Of a stretch of 64,000 nt of DNA, positions 38,735 through 46,094 are shown one piece after another; position 1 is the stretch's first letter, and every line of letters starts with the position of its first letter. This DNA comes from an uncultured Flavobacteriales bacterium (GTDB lineage Bacteria > Bacteroidota > Bacteroidia > Flavobacteriales > Schleiferiaceae), in contig CAJXKC010000001.1 in assembly GCA_913055685.1 (NCBI GenBank), positions 1,054,001 to 1,118,000 of the forward strand, read 5' to 3'. Position numbers and translations under genes: made by a program. Under the pieces are notes generated by a model that made no database searches, was not told the DNA's origin, and saw only the letters and a program-made list of their open reading frames with translations.

Positions 38735-39084
38735 TGGAGGACTTCCTAGACGAAGAGAAGCGGTATTATACCATTGGTGAAGTAGCGGCGATGTTCGACG
38801 TTAATACTTCTCTGATACGATTTTGGGAGGGAGAGTTTGATATCCTCAAACCCAAAAAAAATAAAAAGGGAAATCGCCTTTTTACCCCTAAGGACGTCAA
38901 GAACTTAAAGATTATTTATCACTTGGTGAAGGAGCGGGGTTTTACCCTGAAAGGGGCTAAGGCTAAGCTCAAGGAAAACCATGAGGATACTGCGAAGATT
39001 TCGGAGGTAGTGGATCGCCTGAAGATGATAAAGCAAGCCCTCGGCGAAATCCGCCGAGAGCTCGATTCTGATTTAGATCAATAG
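38734..39084 (+). CDS. MerR family transcriptional regulator
   Basis: Protein of 116 aa. The N-terminal HTH is YYTIGEVAAMFDVNTSLIRF with the wing NRLFTPKDVKNLKIIYHLV; a short dimerisation helix follows. No Cys or metal-binding C-terminal domain is seen, so the signal is unknown. Translationally coupled to the M23 gene. Its stop overlaps the convergent TonB receptor stop by 7 bp. Confidence 0.87.
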   Translation: MEDFLDEEKRYYTIGEVAAMFDVNTSLIRFWEGEFDILKPKKNKKGNRLFTPKDVKNLKIIYHLVKERGFTLKGAKAKLKENHEDTAKISEVVDRLKMIKQALGEIRRELDSDLDQ

Positions 39085-41024
39085 CTTAATTTATATTTTA
39101 ATCCGCCCGTAACCCAGAGACCAGGTAGTTCTACATTGGCGCGATCAAAATACTTTTGGTCCAATAGGTTTTGGGCGCTAATAAAGAACTGCGCATTTTT
39201 CCATTGGTAGTTTAAACTAAGGTTTAAGAGCAGCACATCTTCGTATTCTTGTAATATTCCGCTTGAGGCATTTAGAAATTCACCGGCCCTTTTTTGATAG
39301 GATAGAAAATAGTTTAGACTAAGTTTTTCGAATAAATTCTGTCTAATTCTTAGGCTGGCTTTGTGCTGTAAATAGTCGAATACATAAAGCGATCGAAATA
39401 CATTGGGGTCTTGTTGTTCTTCATTAGCTAAATAAGAGTAACCCAATTCCAAATATTGTATCCCCAAGAGCTTGGAGCTTAAGTTTTTTCGGATACTTAA
39501 TTCCAGTCCGTTGAAATTTACCTTACTGGTATTTCCCGCGATTAAATCGCAAGTATCGCAAGCTTGCGTCCAGTCGATAATATTTTCACCCTGTCGGCGA
39601 AATAAACTGATATTGGCGTACCAAGTATGAGCCATAAAGCGGTAGCCTAGCTCATAGTTTATAGACTCTTCTTGTTTTAAATCTTTACTACCGATTGCGC
39701 CACCTAGGCGATAATATAAATCGGTATAAGAGGGAAAGCGGAAGGAGCGGTTAATACTGGTGTAGAGCTTTTGGTTCTTGGAAACACGATAACCCGCATT
39801 GAAGGCTGGGTAAAAGCCAATACCAAAATCGCTGTTGTAATTCGCTTGAAGAGCTGCACTTAGCTGCAACTTTTTATAATTCCATTGATGCTGTGCTGCT
39901 AAAGAAAGGTTGTGGCGTTGCGCTCCGAGGTAATAGGCATCTCGTTTAGAAGGTATGTCAATGCTATTTTCCAGGCTATCCCCAAGGTTATTGCTTCGTA
40001 CCTGTTCAAACCGGTAATCTAGGCCCAGTGCCGAGAGGCCAAATTTGCTTTCTATTTCAGCGTTAAGCTTGGCGCCAGCAACATCACTGCGATGGTAGTT
40101 ATGGCGGGTATACCAAGATGGTGCTGCTCCGTAATCACTCAGAAATTCGCCGTTTTCAAAACGATAAAATCCATCACTTTCTCGGTACAATTGGAATTCA
40201 TCCCAGTTTCGACGCCAATAAAGCTCTCGGTTAAGACGAAGTTTACCTTCCGACTGCCAATTTAAGCTCCCAAATAAGGTGCGCGTCCTTTCGTATTGCT
40301 CGGGGAAATTACTGGAGTAAAAGTTTTGAGCGCCAAAGCCTTGGTCGGTGTAACCAGCTTGCAATTTTATTTGGTCACTGCCCCATTTAAAGTCACTTTG
40401 TAAAGAGGCATTACTATGGATAAAGTCGGTGTTTCGCCTAAAACCGTCGGAGCGGTTGTGGCTAGCCGAAATTCTAGTTTGGTGCTTTTTTGTTTTAAGA
40501 CTTTGACTTACTTGTGTCTGAAGGGTGTTATAGGAGCCATAACTCAGGGATGCTGCGGTGCTATTTTCGCGGGCCTCTTTGGTGATGATATTCACTGCGC
40601 CACTAAAAGCATTGGCCCCAAAAATATAGGATCCACCTCCCAGTAAAACCTCAATTCGCTTGATGTCGTCCTTGGCGACTGGTAAATTCATGAGGTGATG
40701 TCCAGTTTGAGGGTCGCCTAAGCGGACGCCGTTTACTAGTACTAGTACTTGTTCGAAATTACCGCCGCGAATACTAAGGTCGGTTTGGGTGCCGTAAATT
40801 CCGCGTTGCCGAGCATCGATTCCAACCATGAAATCCAGGAGTTCAGCTACGGTATTTACCGGGGCCTTTTCAATTTCTTCACCACTAATGATTTGCACAT
40901 TTCGCGTACTATTCATTAAACTTTGTTCAAAGCGAGCCGCAGATACGACTATGGTGTCGAGTACTTCTTGAGCCCAGACCTGGGGACTAAAAAGGATTAA
41001 GAGAGAGGTAATAGTTCGTTTCAT
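39078..41024 (-). CDS. TonB-dependent outer-membrane receptor
   Basis: Protein of 648 aa with signal peptide (about 1-18), plug domain (LDTIVVSAARFEQSLMNSTR; TDLSIRGGNFEQVLVLVNG; IEVLLGGGSYIFGANAFSGA) and a C-terminal 22-strand barrel. It is closest in layout to BtuB/FepA-type receptors of about 650 aa. It is divergent from the TPP-riboswitch receptor. No riboswitch of its own is visible in its leader; the substrate is unknown, and a vitamin or metal chelate is plausible. Confidence 0.88.
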   Translation of the reverse strand: MKRTITSLLILFSPQVWAQEVLDTIVVSAARFEQSLMNSTRNVQIISGEEIEKAPVNTVAELLDFMVGIDARQRGIYGTQTDLSIRGGNFEQVLVLVNGVRLGDPQTGHHLMNLPVAKDDIKRIEVLLGGGSYIFGANAFSGAVNIITKEARENSTAASLSYGSYNTLQTQVSQSLKTKKHQTRISASHNRSDGFRRNTDFIHSNASLQSDFKWGSDQIKLQAGYTDQGFGAQNFYSSNFPEQYERTRTLFGSLNWQSEGKLRLNRELYWRRNWDEFQLYRESDGFYRFENGEFLSDYGAAPSWYTRHNYHRSDVAGAKLNAEIESKFGLSALGLDYRFEQVRSNNLGDSLENSIDIPSKRDAYYLGAQRHNLSLAAQHQWNYKKLQLSAALQANYNSDFGIGFYPAFNAGYRVSKNQKLYTSINRSFRFPSYTDLYYRLGGAIGSKDLKQEESINYELGYRFMAHTWYANISLFRRQGENIIDWTQACDTCDLIAGNTSKVNFNGLELSIRKNLSSKLLGIQYLELGYSYLANEEQQDPNVFRSLYVFDYLQHKASLRIRQNLFEKLSLNYFLSYQKRAGEFLNASSGILQEYEDVLLLNLSLNYQWKNAQFFISAQNLLDQKYFDRANVELPGLWVTGGLKYKLSY

Positions 41025-41278: not shown

Positions 41279-43351
41279 ATGAAAAGGCATCTATTTGTTC
41301 TTGCATTAATGGGTTTGAGCCCCCATCTTACCAAGGCTCAATCGGACACGCTGCGAGTCCAAGAATTGGAAGAAGTTACCATTAGTGCGATTCGCGCCAA
41401 TGCTAAGGCCCCGGTGGCTCAGATTACCGCTGGCCTAAAGGAAATCCAGCAAAATTTCAATGGTCAAGATGGGGCTTTTTTGTTGGAGCGCTTAAGTCCA
41501 TCCTTGGTTACCTACTCGGAGTCTGGTACGGGCTTTTCAAATTATGGTCAGATGCGCTTGCGTGGGATTGACCAAACGCGAATTAACATCACCTTGAACG
41601 GAGTGCCCCTTAACGACATGATTGACCAGGGCGTCTTCTTTTCCAACTTCACCGACTTTGGCAATAGTGTGCATTCGGTACAGGTGCAAAGAGGCGTGGG
41701 TACTTCTAGCAATGGGGTAGCTTCCTATGGCGGATCGGTGAACTTCGAGTCGGTGTCCTTAACTAAGACCAAACCCAGTGCAGAATTGCAATTTACGGGG
41801 GGCTCCTTCAATACTTTCAGGGCCAGTGCCGAGGTTCATACCGGCCTAATGGAGAACAAGACCGCCTTTTATGCGCGCATGAGTCGCTTGCAAAGTGATG
41901 GTTACCGTGATCACTCTGGAACCGAGTCCAATTCACTGTTCTTTTCAGGTGGCTACTTTGGAGAAAGTCATGCCATAAAGTTTACGGGCTTCGCCGGTAA
42001 TACAAAAAATGACTTGGCTTATGTGCCTACGCCACTTAGTCTAATCGAGCAGGATCCCAGAACCAACCTTCTGTCCGATAATGATATAGATGATTTTGGG
42101 CAGTGGTTGTTTCAGCTCCAGCATACTTGGCGCTTAAGCGAGAGATCAACTTTAGTGAATACCCTTTATTACGGTGGAGCGGGAGGAGACTTCCCTTATT
42201 CCTATGCCGATACCACTGCGGCGGCAGGCATTAGCACCATTAACTACCCATTGTACAATAATCACTTTGGCTTTATGTCTAATTACAATTTGGACACTAA
42301 ATATGGGGGTATCAATATTGGGGTCCACGCCTATACTTTTAGACGTGAGAATCAAGAGTTGATTGAACCTGATATCAATAATCCTTACTATCAAGATCAA
42401 AGTACCAAGGATGAGGTATCAGCTTTCGCTAAATGGGAGAAAGCCTTTGGCGATTTCACATTATTTGCCGACGTACAGGCCCGTTCGGTGCAGTTGAGTT
42501 TAGGTGGCGATGCCTCTTATTTGGGGGAAGATCCGGCGATTCCTACGCGGGATTATTTTTTCCTGAACCCAAAATTAGGAGCCACTTATGATATTAAGGA
42601 TAATTGGCAGGTATATGCTTCTTTTGGTAGAAGTGGTCGGGAGCCCACCCGGACAGATATTTTAGGTAGTCTTCAGATTAACAGTTTTAACATTGCCGAT
42701 GTACGTAATGTAAATAGTGTGGAGGCGGAATATGTAAATGACCTAGAAGCGGGTACGCGTTTTCAATTAGCAGGCCTAAAACTGGATCTAAACTTATTCT
42801 ACATGAGTTTTGAGAACGAGATTGCTCCTATTGGGGTCTACATTCCCGAAGGTTTCTATCAGGTCTACCTTAACCAAGAGCCTAGCTACAGAGCGGGAGT
42901 GGAGTTGATGGCTAGCTATGATTTCACCGAGTCTTTATCTTTTCAAACGCAAGTTTCTTATTTAAATGCCCGCATTAGTTCCTATACTCCAGCGGCTATT
43001 GATGTTGTTTATACCGATATTCAACCTATTCTTAGTCCCGAATGGAATGCCAATCTCTCAGTGAATTATCAAATCAATGAGGATCTACGTATGTCGTTGC
43101 GAGGGCGTTATTTATCGGAGCAATTTATGGAGCTAAGTAATGATCCGAATTTGGTTGTACCAAGCTCTTTTATACTCGACTTTAATGCCAGCTGGCAGTT
43201 TTATAAGGAGCATGAATTCTCCATTATGGTCAATAATCTTACTAATGAGCTTTATTATACTTACGGTGCTCCGGATGCTTTTAGCGGTGAACCCGCCTTT
43301 TTGGTGCAAGCGCCGATTAACCTTTATGGAACCTTGCGATTAAGGTTCTAA
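41279..43351 (+). CDS. TonB-dependent receptor under TPP riboswitch control (predicted thiamine receptor)
   Basis: Protein of 690 aa. Signal peptide (about 1-20), plug domain (LEEVTISAIRANAKAPVAQ, GQMRLRGIDQTRINITLNGV, VQRGVGTSSNGVASYGGSVN) and barrel with a C-terminal strand ending in Phe (LYGTLRLRF). The TPP riboswitch 66 nt upstream marks it as a thiamine or thiamine-phosphate outer-membrane transporter, as known for riboswitch-controlled receptors in Bacteroides. Tail to tail with the kinase gene of a likely transport operon (4-bp stop overlap). Confidence 0.9.
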   Translation: MKRHLFVLALMGLSPHLTKAQSDTLRVQELEEVTISAIRANAKAPVAQITAGLKEIQQNFNGQDGAFLLERLSPSLVTYSESGTGFSNYGQMRLRGIDQTRINITLNGVPLNDMIDQGVFFSNFTDFGNSVHSVQVQRGVGTSSNGVASYGGSVNFESVSLTKTKPSAELQFTGGSFNTFRASAEVHTGLMENKTAFYARMSRLQSDGYRDHSGTESNSLFFSGGYFGESHAIKFTGFAGNTKNDLAYVPTPLSLIEQDPRTNLLSDNDIDDFGQWLFQLQHTWRLSERSTLVNTLYYGGAGGDFPYSYADTTAAAGISTINYPLYNNHFGFMSNYNLDTKYGGINIGVHAYTFRRENQELIEPDINNPYYQDQSTKDEVSAFAKWEKAFGDFTLFADVQARSVQLSLGGDASYLGEDPAIPTRDYFFLNPKLGATYDIKDNWQVYASFGRSGREPTRTDILGSLQINSFNIADVRNVNSVEAEYVNDLEAGTRFQLAGLKLDLNLFYMSFENEIAPIGVYIPEGFYQVYLNQEPSYRAGVELMASYDFTESLSFQTQVSYLNARISSYTPAAIDVVYTDIQPILSPEWNANLSVNYQINEDLRMSLRGRYLSEQFMELSNDPNLVVPSSFILDFNASWQFYKEHEFSIMVNNLTNELYYTYGAPDAFSGEPAFLVQAPINLYGTLRLRF

Positions 43352-43884
43352 TCTGCGGAGAAGAGGGAAGGAACTAATTGATGAAGAGCGGCCAAAGCAT
43401 TTTTGAGTCGCTCTTCTTTTTGCCCTTTAATTATTTTCAGAGGGCGGTTTAAGCCTTCTATTAGCTGCTGGTGCTCGAAGAAAATATCCAGGCGATCATT
43501 GGGGTTTTCTCTTAAACGATCGGGCTCCCAAGGAAGATCTGGATAGCATAGAAGGTATTGATGCGCTTTTTCATCTTGGAGACCTTTTTCAATTGGGTCA
43601 GGCACTCTAGCAAATACCCTTTGCGACCAAACTTTATAATTGATGCTATCGGTATCAAATAGAATAAACTCTGGATTATTTTTTAAGGCTGACTCTTGCT
43701 TTTTAAGGTGGCCCTGATATATTTCTATGAGGGTCTCGTAATCATAACCAGGTCCTTTGTCCTCTAAAAATTCACGCGCATATTCGGGAACCCATGGGCA
43801 ATCTAAGGCATTGCTTAGGGATTCGCATAAAGCCGATTTCCCTGAACTTTCGGGTCCTGTTACAACAACTATAATTGGCTCCAT
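43348..43884 (-). CDS. NadR-like ATP-dependent kinase (AAA family)
   Basis: Protein of 178 aa. Walker A VTGPESSGKSALCESL, then WVPEYAREFLEDKG and LFDTDSINYKVWSQ, the arrangement of the ribosylnicotinamide kinase domain of NadR. No nicotinamide-mononucleotide adenylyltransferase domain is attached. Together with the adjoining PnuC-like gene (16-bp overlap) it would trap an imported vitamin by phosphorylation. Because of the TPP-riboswitch receptor and YkoF-like neighbour, thiamine is a possible substrate in place of nicotinamide riboside. Confidence 0.8.
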   Translation of the reverse strand: MEPIIVVVTGPESSGKSALCESLSNALDCPWVPEYAREFLEDKGPGYDYETLIEIYQGHLKKQESALKNNPEFILFDTDSINYKVWSQRVFARVPDPIEKGLQDEKAHQYLLCYPDLPWEPDRLRENPNDRLDIFFEHQQLIEGLNRPLKIIKGQKEERLKNALAALHQLVPSLFSAD

Positions 43885-44411
43885 TGGAAATACCCATTTA
43901 TAGCCAATAAGGTGTAGAGGCCAAATAATATCGAGCTCAGCTTAAGGCCTCTGCGGTAATATAAAGCAATTGAAACGGTGTCGATAGCTATCCAGTAAAG
44001 CCAGTTTTCACGATATAGTAAAACCATCAGGGCAGTTGCAGCTAGACTAAAAACAGTGGTAAAAGAATCGAGGAAGGGGAGCTGTGAATTACTGAGGTTC
44101 TTTAATGAAATACCACTCACAAATACGATTAATCCGGCGCCGCCAATAATCATGAGATGGCTAGTCCAGCTTAATGGGGCCGGACTTTCACTTAGTCCCT
44201 TTCCCCAATTAAGAAAACCGTAAATGGCCATGAAAATGTAAAAGCCTTGCAAGGCGACTTCTGCATAGATCCTTTTTTGATAGCAAAGAATTAAGAAAAG
44301 TAAGCCAGAGAAAAAGGCAAAAAACCAGCACCAAACGCTGTTGTAGGTAATTAGGATGGTATAAGCCAAACTAGATATTACTGCCGCTATTTCCAGGGCC
44401 GAAATGCGCAA
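43869..44411 (-). CDS. PnuC/PnuT family vitamin transporter
   Basis: Protein of 180 aa with six to seven membrane helices. The C-terminal half has ENWLYWIAIDTVSIALYYRRG and the LFGLYTLLAINGYFQW ending, typical of Pnu transporters. These are facilitators for nicotinamide riboside (PnuC) or thiamine (PnuT). The TTG start at 44411 lies just after the stop of the 87-aa gene. Context favours thiamine, but sequence alone cannot decide. Confidence 0.85.
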   Translation of the reverse strand: MRISALEIAAVISSLAYTILITYNSVWCWFFAFFSGLLFLILCYQKRIYAEVALQGFYIFMAIYGFLNWGKGLSESPAPLSWTSHLMIIGGAGLIVFVSGISLKNLSNSQLPFLDSFTTVFSLAATALMVLLYRENWLYWIAIDTVSIALYYRRGLKLSSILFGLYTLLAINGYFQWSQL

Positions 44412-44412
44412 A

Positions 44413-44676
44413 TTAATAGTCTTTGATTTCCATGTCCGACAAGTCCCCTTTAAGAATCTTTAACACGAAGGGACTCTGACCATTTTCGAAGGAACGGTTA
44501 ATTTCGGTTTCTAAAGCTTGGAATATCAAAGCAGACTCACCATAGATTTGGGTACTAATGGGGGTCACCTTGATTTTTAAATCTGCGTATTTGTGGAGGC
44601 GATCAAGAAAATCATCGACTCTATCCAGATAACTTTCAGTCAGTGGATATTTAGAAATTTCTACACTTATTTTCAT
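44413..44676 (-). CDS. YkoF-like putative thiamine/HMP-binding protein
   Basis: Protein of 87 aa: MKISVEISKYPLTESYLDRV, then KIKVTPISTQIYGESALIF, then a C-terminal strand. The ferredoxin-like pattern and the STQIYGE segment resemble the YkoF/MTH1187 thiamine-binding fold, about half the length of B. subtilis YkoF. Such proteins bind thiamine or hydroxymethylpyrimidine, with unclear physiological role. It lies 1 bp before the PnuC-like gene and overlaps the GGGP synthase stop by one base. Confidence 0.6.
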   Translation of the reverse strand: MKISVEISKYPLTESYLDRVDDFLDRLHKYADLKIKVTPISTQIYGESALIFQALETEINRSFENGQSPFVLKILKGDLSDMEIKDY

Positions 44677-45422
44677 TAGATGGACTTGATGGCGGCTGCA
44701 ATTTCGGGCAGTGCCTCTGGATTGGATTCAAATAAATTTCCCACCACAATAACATCCGCTCCAGCTTGAGCTAACTCTTTCGCCTTCGCCGCAGTGCGAA
44801 TGCCACCACCGAGGATAATCGGTTTATCGATTGAAGCTCGAACTTGACTAATCATTTCCGCGCTAACTGTTTGCTGGGCACCACTACCTCCGTCCAGGTA
44901 AAAGAATTGTAGGCCTAACATCTCGCCAGCCATGGCGGTACAGGCAGCAATTTCCGATTTGTCGTAGGGGATAGGCTGACTATTACTCATGTAAATAGCC
45001 GTAGTGGTTTTGCCACAATCAACCAGCATATAGGCGGTGGGCAGGATGTCGAGCTGCGATTGCTTAAGATAAGGAGCGGCAATAACTTGGTTGCCAATAA
45101 GCAAATCAGGATTTCGACCCGAAATAAGGCTTAAGAACAAAATTCCGTCTGCCAAATCCGAAACTTGTAAAACGCTGCCGGGGAAAAGTAGAATTGGTAA
45201 ACTCGAATGCTGTCGTATTTCGGCTAAACAAGCTTCCAAATTGTCTTTGGTAAGTAAGCTGCCTCCAACGAAGATTAAATCTGCTCCGCCTTGCTCCGCT
45301 AAATGGCACAGGTTTTTAATGGCCTTACTGCCAGGCTTATCAGGGTCGATAAGCACGGCTAAAAGCTTTTTTTGGTCCTGGTAGGCTTGCTTAATTATTT
45401 GCGAAACATCGGCTTTGCTCAT
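44676..45422 (-). CDS. Geranylgeranylglyceryl/heptaprenylglyceryl phosphate synthase
   Basis: About 248 aa from ATG 45422; a TTG at 45431 adds three residues. TIM barrel with LLAVLIDPDKPGSKAIKNL, FVGGSLLTKDNLEA, FFYLDGGSGAQQTVS and PIILGGGIRTAAKA, the phosphate and glycerol-1-phosphate binding signatures of GGGPS. It forms the sn-glycerol-1-phosphate prenyl ether of archaeal-type lipids. With the UbiA gene at 18926 it suggests a prenyl ether-lipid pathway. Confidence 0.92.
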   Translation of the reverse strand: MSKADVSQIIKQAYQDQKKLLAVLIDPDKPGSKAIKNLCHLAEQGGADLIFVGGSLLTKDNLEACLAEIRQHSSLPILLFPGSVLQVSDLADGILFLSLISGRNPDLLIGNQVIAAPYLKQSQLDILPTAYMLVDCGKTTTAIYMSNSQPIPYDKSEIAACTAMAGEMLGLQFFYLDGGSGAQQTVSAEMISQVRASIDKPIILGGGIRTAAKAKELAQAGADVIVVGNLFESNPEALPEIAAAIKSI

Positions 45423-45428
45423 ACAGGA

Positions 45429-45436
45429 CAAACCTA
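45429..45436 (-). promoter_or_regulatory. Candidate -7 element (TAGGTTTG) for the GGGPS-YkoF-Pnu-kinase operon
   Basis: Exact TAnnTTTG on the minus strand, 6 bp before ATG 45422, so transcription would begin at or next to the start codon (leaderless). No riboswitch can fit in this leader. Confidence 0.35.
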
Positions 45437-45464
45437 CTAAATATTAGAATTAGAAAAAGACATT

Positions 45465-46094
45465 TCAGGCCTCGTAACTAAAGCAAAGACAAAAATCTTT
45501 TTCGAATTTGAAAAAGAGGGGATAGGACTTGATTTTTTCTTTTTTACGAATGATACCCTGAGTCATTCCGCTTTGCCTATAAGGAAATGGGCTAATGCGC
45601 ATTTCTTTTCTTAGGTCCAAACCCGGGTTGTCTTCCATTTTAATGAGGGTTTCTTTGGCACTCCAATAAGCAAGACACATGCTCTCCTCATTGCTGGGTT
45701 TAAGAGAGTTCAATTCTTGATTACTAAGATAGCGCTCAGCTAACCTTAGCATCTGGGGTCGAAAGGCTTCTAGGTCGATGGCTACCCGATGCTCTTTACT
45801 CACGATCACTGCGCTGTAATTAGCATTGTGGCTTATTGAAACCCCTCGGTAGCCCTTCAGTTGAGGGGCACCGCGCTCCGAATAACTTAAATCGATATTT
45901 CCTTCGGTTAAATGATGCAATGCAGCTCGGGTACTTAGAAACTCCAATTGCTTCTTCGGGTTCTTTAGATGTTTATACCTGTTCTGATCCGCTTTGGATA
46001 AGCGTTCTGTCCAGTAGTCTTCATCAATAGCATCTTCAATTTCCCAAACCAAGGCTTGAAGATGTTCCCATTGATAAAGTTTATAGACTGCCAT
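45465..46094 (-). CDS. 4'-phosphopantetheinyl transferase family protein
   Basis: Protein of 209 aa (Sfp-type half length). Key residues: GVSISHNANYSAVIVSK, then VAIDLEAFRPQM (Mg-binding Asp and Glu), then YWSAKETLIKM. It transfers phosphopantetheine from CoA to carrier proteins. No polyketide or peptide synthase is in the window, so it may modify the primary acyl carrier protein. Confidence 0.87.
   Translation of the reverse strand: MAVYKLYQWEHLQALVWEIEDAIDEDYWTERLSKADQNRYKHLKNPKKQLEFLSTRAALHHLTEGNIDLSYSERGAPQLKGYRGVSISHNANYSAVIVSKEHRVAIDLEAFRPQMLRLAERYLSNQELNSLKPSNEESMCLAYWSAKETLIKMEDNPGLDLRKEMRISPFPYRQSGMTQGIIRKKEKIKSYPLFFKFEKDFCLCFSYEA

Follow-up and report, generated by a model that had tools for sequence, protein, structure and literature searches.

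In Bacteroides, the OMthi–PnuT–Tnr3 system for thiamine (vitamin B1) relies on thiamine pyrophosphokinase (TPK) as its trapping enzyme, as described in the part of PMC5613172 that deals with it. The specificity of Pnu transporters has been argued to be readable from riboswitch class (a section of PMC7749635), and a survey deduces that Flavobacteriales and Cytophagales salvage thiamine, from the occurrence of ThiL and omr1 without key biosynthesis genes; its passage on these two groups names no thiamine kinase, and the legend of its pathway figure lists ThiK generally (PMC12236431). Here we describe a locus in a 64,000-nucleotide stretch of DNA (hereafter the window) from an uncultured Flavobacteriales bacterium (contig CAJXKC010000001.1), in which the genes for a NadR-type kinase, a Pnu-family transporter and a small YkoF-like protein converge on a TonB-dependent receptor gene preceded by a thiamine pyrophosphate (TPP) riboswitch. 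The kinase is very likely a NadR-fold thiamine kinase, forming thiamine monophosphate (TMP) that ThiL would then process, and a non-orthologous replacement of TPK in much of Bacteroidota. This interpretation rests on mutual exclusion and linkage, and not on the tree of the kinase.

Pathway gap and mutual exclusion with TPK and ThiC

The genome holding the window is 2.96 Mb in size and 99.9% complete. Genome searches found neither TPK nor ThiC in it, and no ThiE either (the sole PF02581 match, at 20.1 bits, falls in a gene of the geranylgeranylglyceryl phosphate synthase (GGGPS) family at the locus). ThiL is present (318 bits) and is encoded away from the locus. Since ThiC, ThiE and TPK were not found and ThiL is kept, the organism should be a thiamine auxotroph. 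ThiL needs TMP, and thiamine must therefore be phosphorylated first, unless TMP or TPP itself is imported; searches of this genome, which did not cover ThiK-type genes, ThiD, ThiM and TenA, revealed no known gene that would take thiamine to TMP. A separate complete PnuT–TPK pair, which the initial annotation had named as an observation that would speak against a thiamine kinase, was not found: the whole genome has one PF04973 match, that is, one Pnu gene, and no TPK.

Across the class, the kinase and TPK exclude one another in genomes without ThiC. In an evenly drawn sample of 197 genomes, the kinase was found in 106, TPK in 39, ThiC in 62 and ThiL in 193 (one of the 106 kinase genomes, G245, is without ThiL over the cut-off). 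The 135 ThiC-less genomes comprise 99 with the kinase only, 29 with TPK only, none with both and seven with neither (Fisher P 3e-23, a value that treats genomes as independent and ignores kinship). Among the 62 genomes with ThiC, four have kinase and TPK, three the kinase, six TPK and 49 neither. ThiC and the kinase also avoid each other: in a within-family permutation over the 158 TPK-less genomes, they were seen together in three against a mean of 9.1 expected (P 5e-5), and seven families (f16, f26, f33, f34, f49, f53 and f56) contain ThiC genomes free of the kinase beside kinase genomes free of ThiC. Of the 65 families, 30 include genomes with the kinase and 15 genomes with TPK; only f3 and f48 have both. 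At one fetched TPK locus (L183), TPK occupies the equivalent place, in the order riboswitch, receptor, Pnu, TPK (riboswitch 62.9 bits). By these counts, the kinase fills the thiamine-activating slot of TPK in ThiC-less genomes without being a member of the TPK family. It likely represents a third thiamine-activating kinase family, NadR-fold and unrelated to TPK and ThiK, that would be the main B1-activating route of thiamine-auxotrophic Bacteroidota (99 of the 135 ThiC-less genomes sampled) and would swap with ThiC in the seven families.

The order was sampled with 119 genomes, counting the kinase at E ≤1e-25. The kinase was present in 95, TPK in 12, ThiC in 12, a TPP riboswitch in 103 and Pnu in 112; the window's family, represented by 72 of the genomes, yielded no TPK. 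The 107 ThiC-less genomes divide into kinase only (92), TPK only (4), both (0) and neither (11). No ThiE passed the cut-off in 86 of the 95 kinase genomes, that of the window included, and ThiL is over its cut-off in 76 of these 86. Where ThiL is kept without ThiE, TMP could be supplied, among known routes, only by a thiamine kinase or by TMP import, and TMP is thus favoured as the product of the kinase.

Linkage to TPP riboswitches

The TPP riboswitch of the window was missed in the ordinary Rfam scan at the gathering score of 54.3 and was recovered with an E-value threshold (RF00059, E 8e-7; Table 1). It aligns full length to positions 1–105 of the model, and an alignment of 29 shows the consensus, including CUGAGA and the P4/P5 core. 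The Rfam cut-off is exceeded somewhere in 25 of the 119 genomes of the order. The six other members of the genus all have a riboswitch next to the kinase as well. Across the order, it was detected in 88 of the 95 kinase genomes; kinase and riboswitch are on one contig in 67 of these and within 10 kb in 66, and in 42 the riboswitch is at most 300 bp downstream of the kinase on the same strand. The typical gene order is ahcY / ppt – ggp – ykoF – pnu – kinase – riboswitch – receptor. In 42 fetched kinase loci, which were picked by the places of Pnu, kinase or riboswitch and whose fractions are therefore not unbiased, 32 have Pnu directly next to the kinase, 25 a YkoF-like gene at a distance of up to 1.5 kb and 31 a GGGPS gene at a distance of up to 3 kb. 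Six loci (L045, L060, L068, L086, L087 and L091) retain the kinase without Pnu. In genus g12, which has small genomes, a fusion of phosphopantetheinyl transferase and kinase stands directly 5′ of riboswitch and receptor (L049:1232–2461, L066:1482–2687 and L090:2503–3708, the three scanned). The long kinase frame of G027 (343–348 amino acids (aa)) was rejected as a fusion, its extra length being an open shifted frame over pnu; a long frame in G047 looks similar.

A wider scan of named genomes covered the best 80 of 425 relatives, at least four of which (L094, L097, L099 and L156) are loci already in the order survey. Pnu lies within 150 bp of the kinase in 57 of the best 80 and a YkoF-like gene is near in 14; no thiamine-related gene was found among the scanned neighbours of the other Pnu–kinase pairs of this set (which include glycosyltransferase, UvrB and peptidases). 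In marine Proteobacteria (Amphritea and others; L095, L096 and L098), the kinase stands beside a very divergent Pnu protein, and an Rfam scan of the three loci found no riboswitch near them. Their kinases group together (98, starred) within a larger starred set of 15 rows (95) that also holds kinases of the window's family, a nesting which suggests a probable gene transfer. Two of the three loci have a 350-aa gene upstream, a flavin mononucleotide (FMN) oxidoreductase in L095, the only one scanned.

Identity of the proteins and alternative substrates

The kinase matches PF13521 at 94.3 bits, and the family scan listed no match to PF04263 (TPK_catalytic). It aligns only to positions 164–322 of 325 in the NadR model TIGR01526 (69.6 bits against a cut-off of 341.15) and therefore lacks the adenylyltransferase domain, as the initial annotation had stated. 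A 35-member profile of the kinase finds NadR structures (E 6e-26 to 2e-19), and NadR structures align with its AlphaFold2 (AF2) model (predicted local distance difference test 95.9) at Z 17.9 to 21.1. In its predicted fold, the kinase belongs with P-loop phosphotransferases such as NadR, thymidylate kinases and deoxynucleoside kinases. Of the residues common to 85% or more of 133 kinase sequences, Y39, Y47, W86, E126 and P128 are absent from five Bacteroidota NadR and are candidates for specificity residues; the window's kinase itself has F at position 39. D116, taken as diagnostic against NadR sequences of the PDB, was rejected because it is common to four of the five Bacteroidota NadR.

A first alternative is that the kinase is a nicotinamide riboside (NR) kinase working with a PnuC NR transporter, its place beside a thiamine receptor being accidental. 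Pnu with a NadR-like kinase is the textbook NR pair. The nearest solved structures of the kinase model are NadR (8x7f, Z 21.1 over 175 residues, and 6gyf, Z 20.9), and the NCBIfam model names the transporter PnuC (85.3 bits against a cut-off of 42.45). Moreover, in a quick tree of 74 kinases and NadR kinase domains, with quick support values only, the kinases are not recovered as a single clade with NadR outside, several kinase branches and NadR leaving one unresolved fork, although the kinase domains of bifunctional NadR group together, apart from the kinases (support 94, unstarred). However, nicotinamide adenine dinucleotide (NAD) metabolism predicts neither the exclusion with TPK (none of the 135 ThiC-less genomes with both) nor the exclusion with ThiC within families, and the kinase is tied to TPP riboswitches and YkoF-like genes even without Pnu. 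True PnuC–NadR pairs are also present in some genomes: five genomes of the class sample have a second, weaker match, in proteins of 320–352 aa that match the whole NadR model including its adenylyltransferase part, below its cut-off; Pnu adjoins four of these five bifunctional NadR genes, and such pairs coexist with the kinase in G132, G244, G259 and G303. The PnuC label does not discriminate, because the same model also names the TPK-linked Pnu behind the L183 TPP riboswitch a PnuC. We regard NR as a very unlikely substrate.

The transporter itself matches PF04973 at 157.4 bits and the PnuC structure 4qtn at E 2.4e-8. In a Pnu tree, which had no characterised PnuT sequence, four NadR-linked Pnu form one starred group, and some kinase-linked Pnu are joined at 93 by two TPK-linked ones, the window's Pnu being placed elsewhere. 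The initial annotation had proposed a comparison of its substrate-site residues with known PnuC and PnuT; residues and tree alone fail to separate PnuT from PnuC. An Asn/Asp position after a W..W motif was dropped as a specificity marker, since it varies among kinase-linked and TPK-linked Pnu. The link of Pnu to the TPP riboswitch runs through the convergent overlapping receptor, the element not being directly upstream of pnu.

The 87-aa protein alone scores under the cut-off of PF07615 (19.4 bits against 21). The profile of its 22-member family matches YkoF structures (E 3.6e-6), and PF01910 and PF07615 are each matched by 17 of the 22 members at E ≤0.1. Its predicted fold matches TM0486 (Z 10.2) and SP2199 (Z 10.0), the best unrelated row being at 8.7, and MTH1187 (Z 8.0) is level with unrelated rows. 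By family profile and predicted fold, the protein is thus related to YkoF/Thiamine_BP, a relation whose absence the initial annotation would have counted against its proposal.

That the kinase is instead a pyrophosphokinase, forming TPP directly and not TMP, is highly improbable. It takes the role of TPK, and the retention of ThiL does not decide the matter, since ThiL is likewise present in TPK genomes of the class sample; with ThiL in 193 of 197 genomes, its presence was largely dropped as a discriminator between TMP and TPP. However, the fold is that of P-loop phosphotransferases, which transfer one phosphate, and ThiL is kept in 76 of the 86 ThiE-less kinase genomes of the order but has no match over the cut-off in f15, a family with three TPK genomes. 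It is scarcely credible that the substrate is a precursor of thiamine (hydroxymethylpyrimidine, aminopyrimidine or thiazole alcohol): Bacillus YkoF belongs to a pyrimidine-precursor uptake operon and NMT1/THI5-like lipoproteins occur 3′ of the receptor in the genus, yet without ThiE, as in 86 of the 95 kinase genomes, no known enzyme could join the precursors.

We return to the reading of the kinase as a thiamine kinase in place of TPK, which the initial annotation had raised as a possibility and which gains support from the lack of TPK in the window's genome, the lack of any sampled ThiC-less genome with both enzymes and the linkage to riboswitches. The locus would then be the thiamine-scavenging unit of a thiamine auxotroph. 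The TonB receptor, under the TPP riboswitch, would carry thiamine over the outer membrane, and Pnu would let it equilibrate over the inner membrane. PnuT reportedly works by facilitated diffusion, a finding attributed to Jaehme and colleagues in 2018, and trapping by phosphorylation would therefore be needed. The kinase would provide it by phosphorylating thiamine to TMP, which ThiL, encoded elsewhere, would convert to TPP, and the YkoF-like protein would probably bind thiamine in the cytoplasm.

Several observations weigh against this reading. The kinase operon does not itself lie behind the riboswitch: in the window the element sits 5′ of the receptor, towards which the operon is convergently transcribed, and where linkage is closest in the order (42 cases) it is downstream of the kinase. 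In the draft assemblies of 21 of the 88 genomes, kinase and riboswitch fall on separate contigs; in at least one genome, G020, the distance between them is genuinely large, and in G113 it is 240 kb. A survey of neighbours for TPP riboswitches as opposed to NAD genes, suggested at the outset, came out for thiamine within the order and in part only in the wider sample, in which a TPP riboswitch lies within 7 kb in only 13 of the best 80 loci. ThiL is near universal in the class, also beside TPK, and 10 of the 95 kinase genomes of the order are without ThiL over the cut-off (eight of these ten are in at least 70 contigs). Trees do not cleanly split kinase-linked Pnu from other Pnu types, in addition to the unresolved fork of the kinase tree noted above. 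TPK adjoins Pnu in only two of 13 fetched TPK loci (L183 and L190), and its equivalent place is thus a minority arrangement in this sample. Finally, four genomes of one genus with ThiC (G073, G087, G113 and G308) carry both kinase and TPK, the kinase lying in a frame of 730–800 aa.

A kinase–DUF4301 fusion (PF14134, 670 bits; L070:7269–9389) was seen in G073, where scanned, in genus g21, which also has TPK and ThiC; the kinase of this genus may serve another purpose.

Layout of the locus and comparison with known systems

Table 1 Features of the locus, in window coordinates
Feature	Position	Strand	Basis
TPP riboswitch aptamer 5′ of TonB receptor, below Rfam gathering score	41106..41226	+	41.5 bits
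TonB-dependent outer-membrane receptor, proposed thiamine receptor (OMR1/OMthi type)	41279..43351	+	family match
NadR-type ribosylnicotinamide-kinase-fold kinase, 178 aa, without adenylyltransferase domain; proposed thiamine kinase (thiamine + ATP -> TMP)	43348..43884	-	PF13521, NadR fold, context
Pnu-family inner-membrane transporter, 180 aa; proposed PnuT (thiamine)	43869..44411	-	PF04973
YkoF/Thiamine_BP-like single-domain protein, 87 aa; proposed cytoplasmic thiamine binder	44413..44676	-	profile + fold
Geranylgeranylglyceryl/heptaprenylglyceryl phosphate synthase (PcrB/GGGPS) family gene, probably same operon	44676..45431	-	family match
4′-phosphopantetheinyl transferase family gene, probably first in operon	45465..46094	-	family match

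On the minus strand, the genes run in the order phosphopantetheinyl transferase, GGGPS/PcrB gene, YkoF-like, Pnu, kinase, with junctions of +33, −1, +1 and −16 bp. The YkoF-like open reading frame (ORF) shares 1 bp with the GGGPS-family gene upstream of it and is separated from the Pnu ORF by 1 bp, and 16 bp are common to the Pnu and kinase ORFs, in agreement with the close packing of the last three genes noted initially. Given these tight junctions, the operon probably extends upstream to the GGGPS-family and phosphopantetheinyl transferase genes, two genes absent from the earlier list. The 3′ ends of the convergent kinase and receptor genes overlap by 4 bp, which bears out the overlap between operon and riboswitch-controlled receptor that had been described.

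The GGGPS/PcrB and phosphopantetheinyl transferase genes (window 44676–46094) are widely conserved upstream neighbours of the thiamine genes across the order. A second TonB receptor gene (window 39078–41024) is divergent from the riboswitch–receptor unit; an ORF of 651–688 aa occupies the corresponding position in the six other members of the genus, receptor-like by profile in L031. Directly 3′ of the TPP-controlled receptor, four of the six other genus members encode NMT1/THI5-like proteins (L031:5689–6711, L032:1524–2552, L035:6499–7521 and L036:5641–6660), of which the window has none. With lipobox-like N termini and, in the three scanned, PF09084, they are likely periplasmic binding lipoproteins for thiamine or a precursor. 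In genus g4 (G009 and G042), an additional Pnu gene directly follows a TPP riboswitch of its own (L040:6996–8731 and L065:4737–6473), and in L040, the only one scanned, an acyl-CoA-dehydrogenase/flavin-monooxygenase-like gene comes next; this unit perhaps imports and converts a thiamine-related compound. The window's genome has a second, widespread AAA_28 gene (C2:567644–568132; L073:7597–8160), with only 19.6 bits to the kinase profile, that lies next to a gene of 632 aa corresponding to a RecQ-like gene in L074. It was rejected as a member of the kinase family, as it forms a group apart with four counterparts (100, starred), separate from NadR too.

The literature searched, which covers few subscription papers, yielded no description of a NadR-type thiamine kinase. 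If the proposal is true, the kinase fills the thiamine-kinase gap in the salvage pathway of Flavobacteriales and Cytophagales, B1-auxotrophy calls change for a large part of Bacteroidota, many genes labelled 'NadR-like ATPase' or 'PnuC' receive a corrected annotation, and an NAD-salvage enzyme has been re-tooled for another vitamin.

The locus resembles the Bacteroides OMR1/OMthi–PnuT–Tnr3 system (B. thetaiotaomicron BT2390 and BT2396–BT2397, in the part of PMC5613172 that treats them) in combining a TPP-controlled TonB receptor, Pnu and a thiamine-phosphorylating enzyme, and the very order of that system is found at L183. By contrast, the window has a NadR-fold kinase for TPK and an additional YkoF-like gene, and its pnu and kinase genes are not behind the riboswitch. 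With the ribosylnicotinamide kinase domain of NadR (1LW7, 6GYE and 8X7F), the kinase has in common the fold, the P-loop and the E34/R37/D77/D122/R125 positions; it differs in lacking the nicotinamide mononucleotide adenylyltransferase domain, in its thiamine context and, relative to the five Bacteroidota NadR, at W86, E126 and P128. The 87-aa protein is akin to YkoF and MTH1187 (Thiamine_BP, PF01910) by profile and by its fold match to TM0486, and unlike them it is a single domain that stays below the Pfam cut-off on its own. The reaction proposed for the kinase is that of E. coli ThiK (YcfN), which converts thiamine to TMP for ThiL; ThiK is an aminoglycoside-phosphotransferase-like protein, its fold unrelated to that of the kinase.

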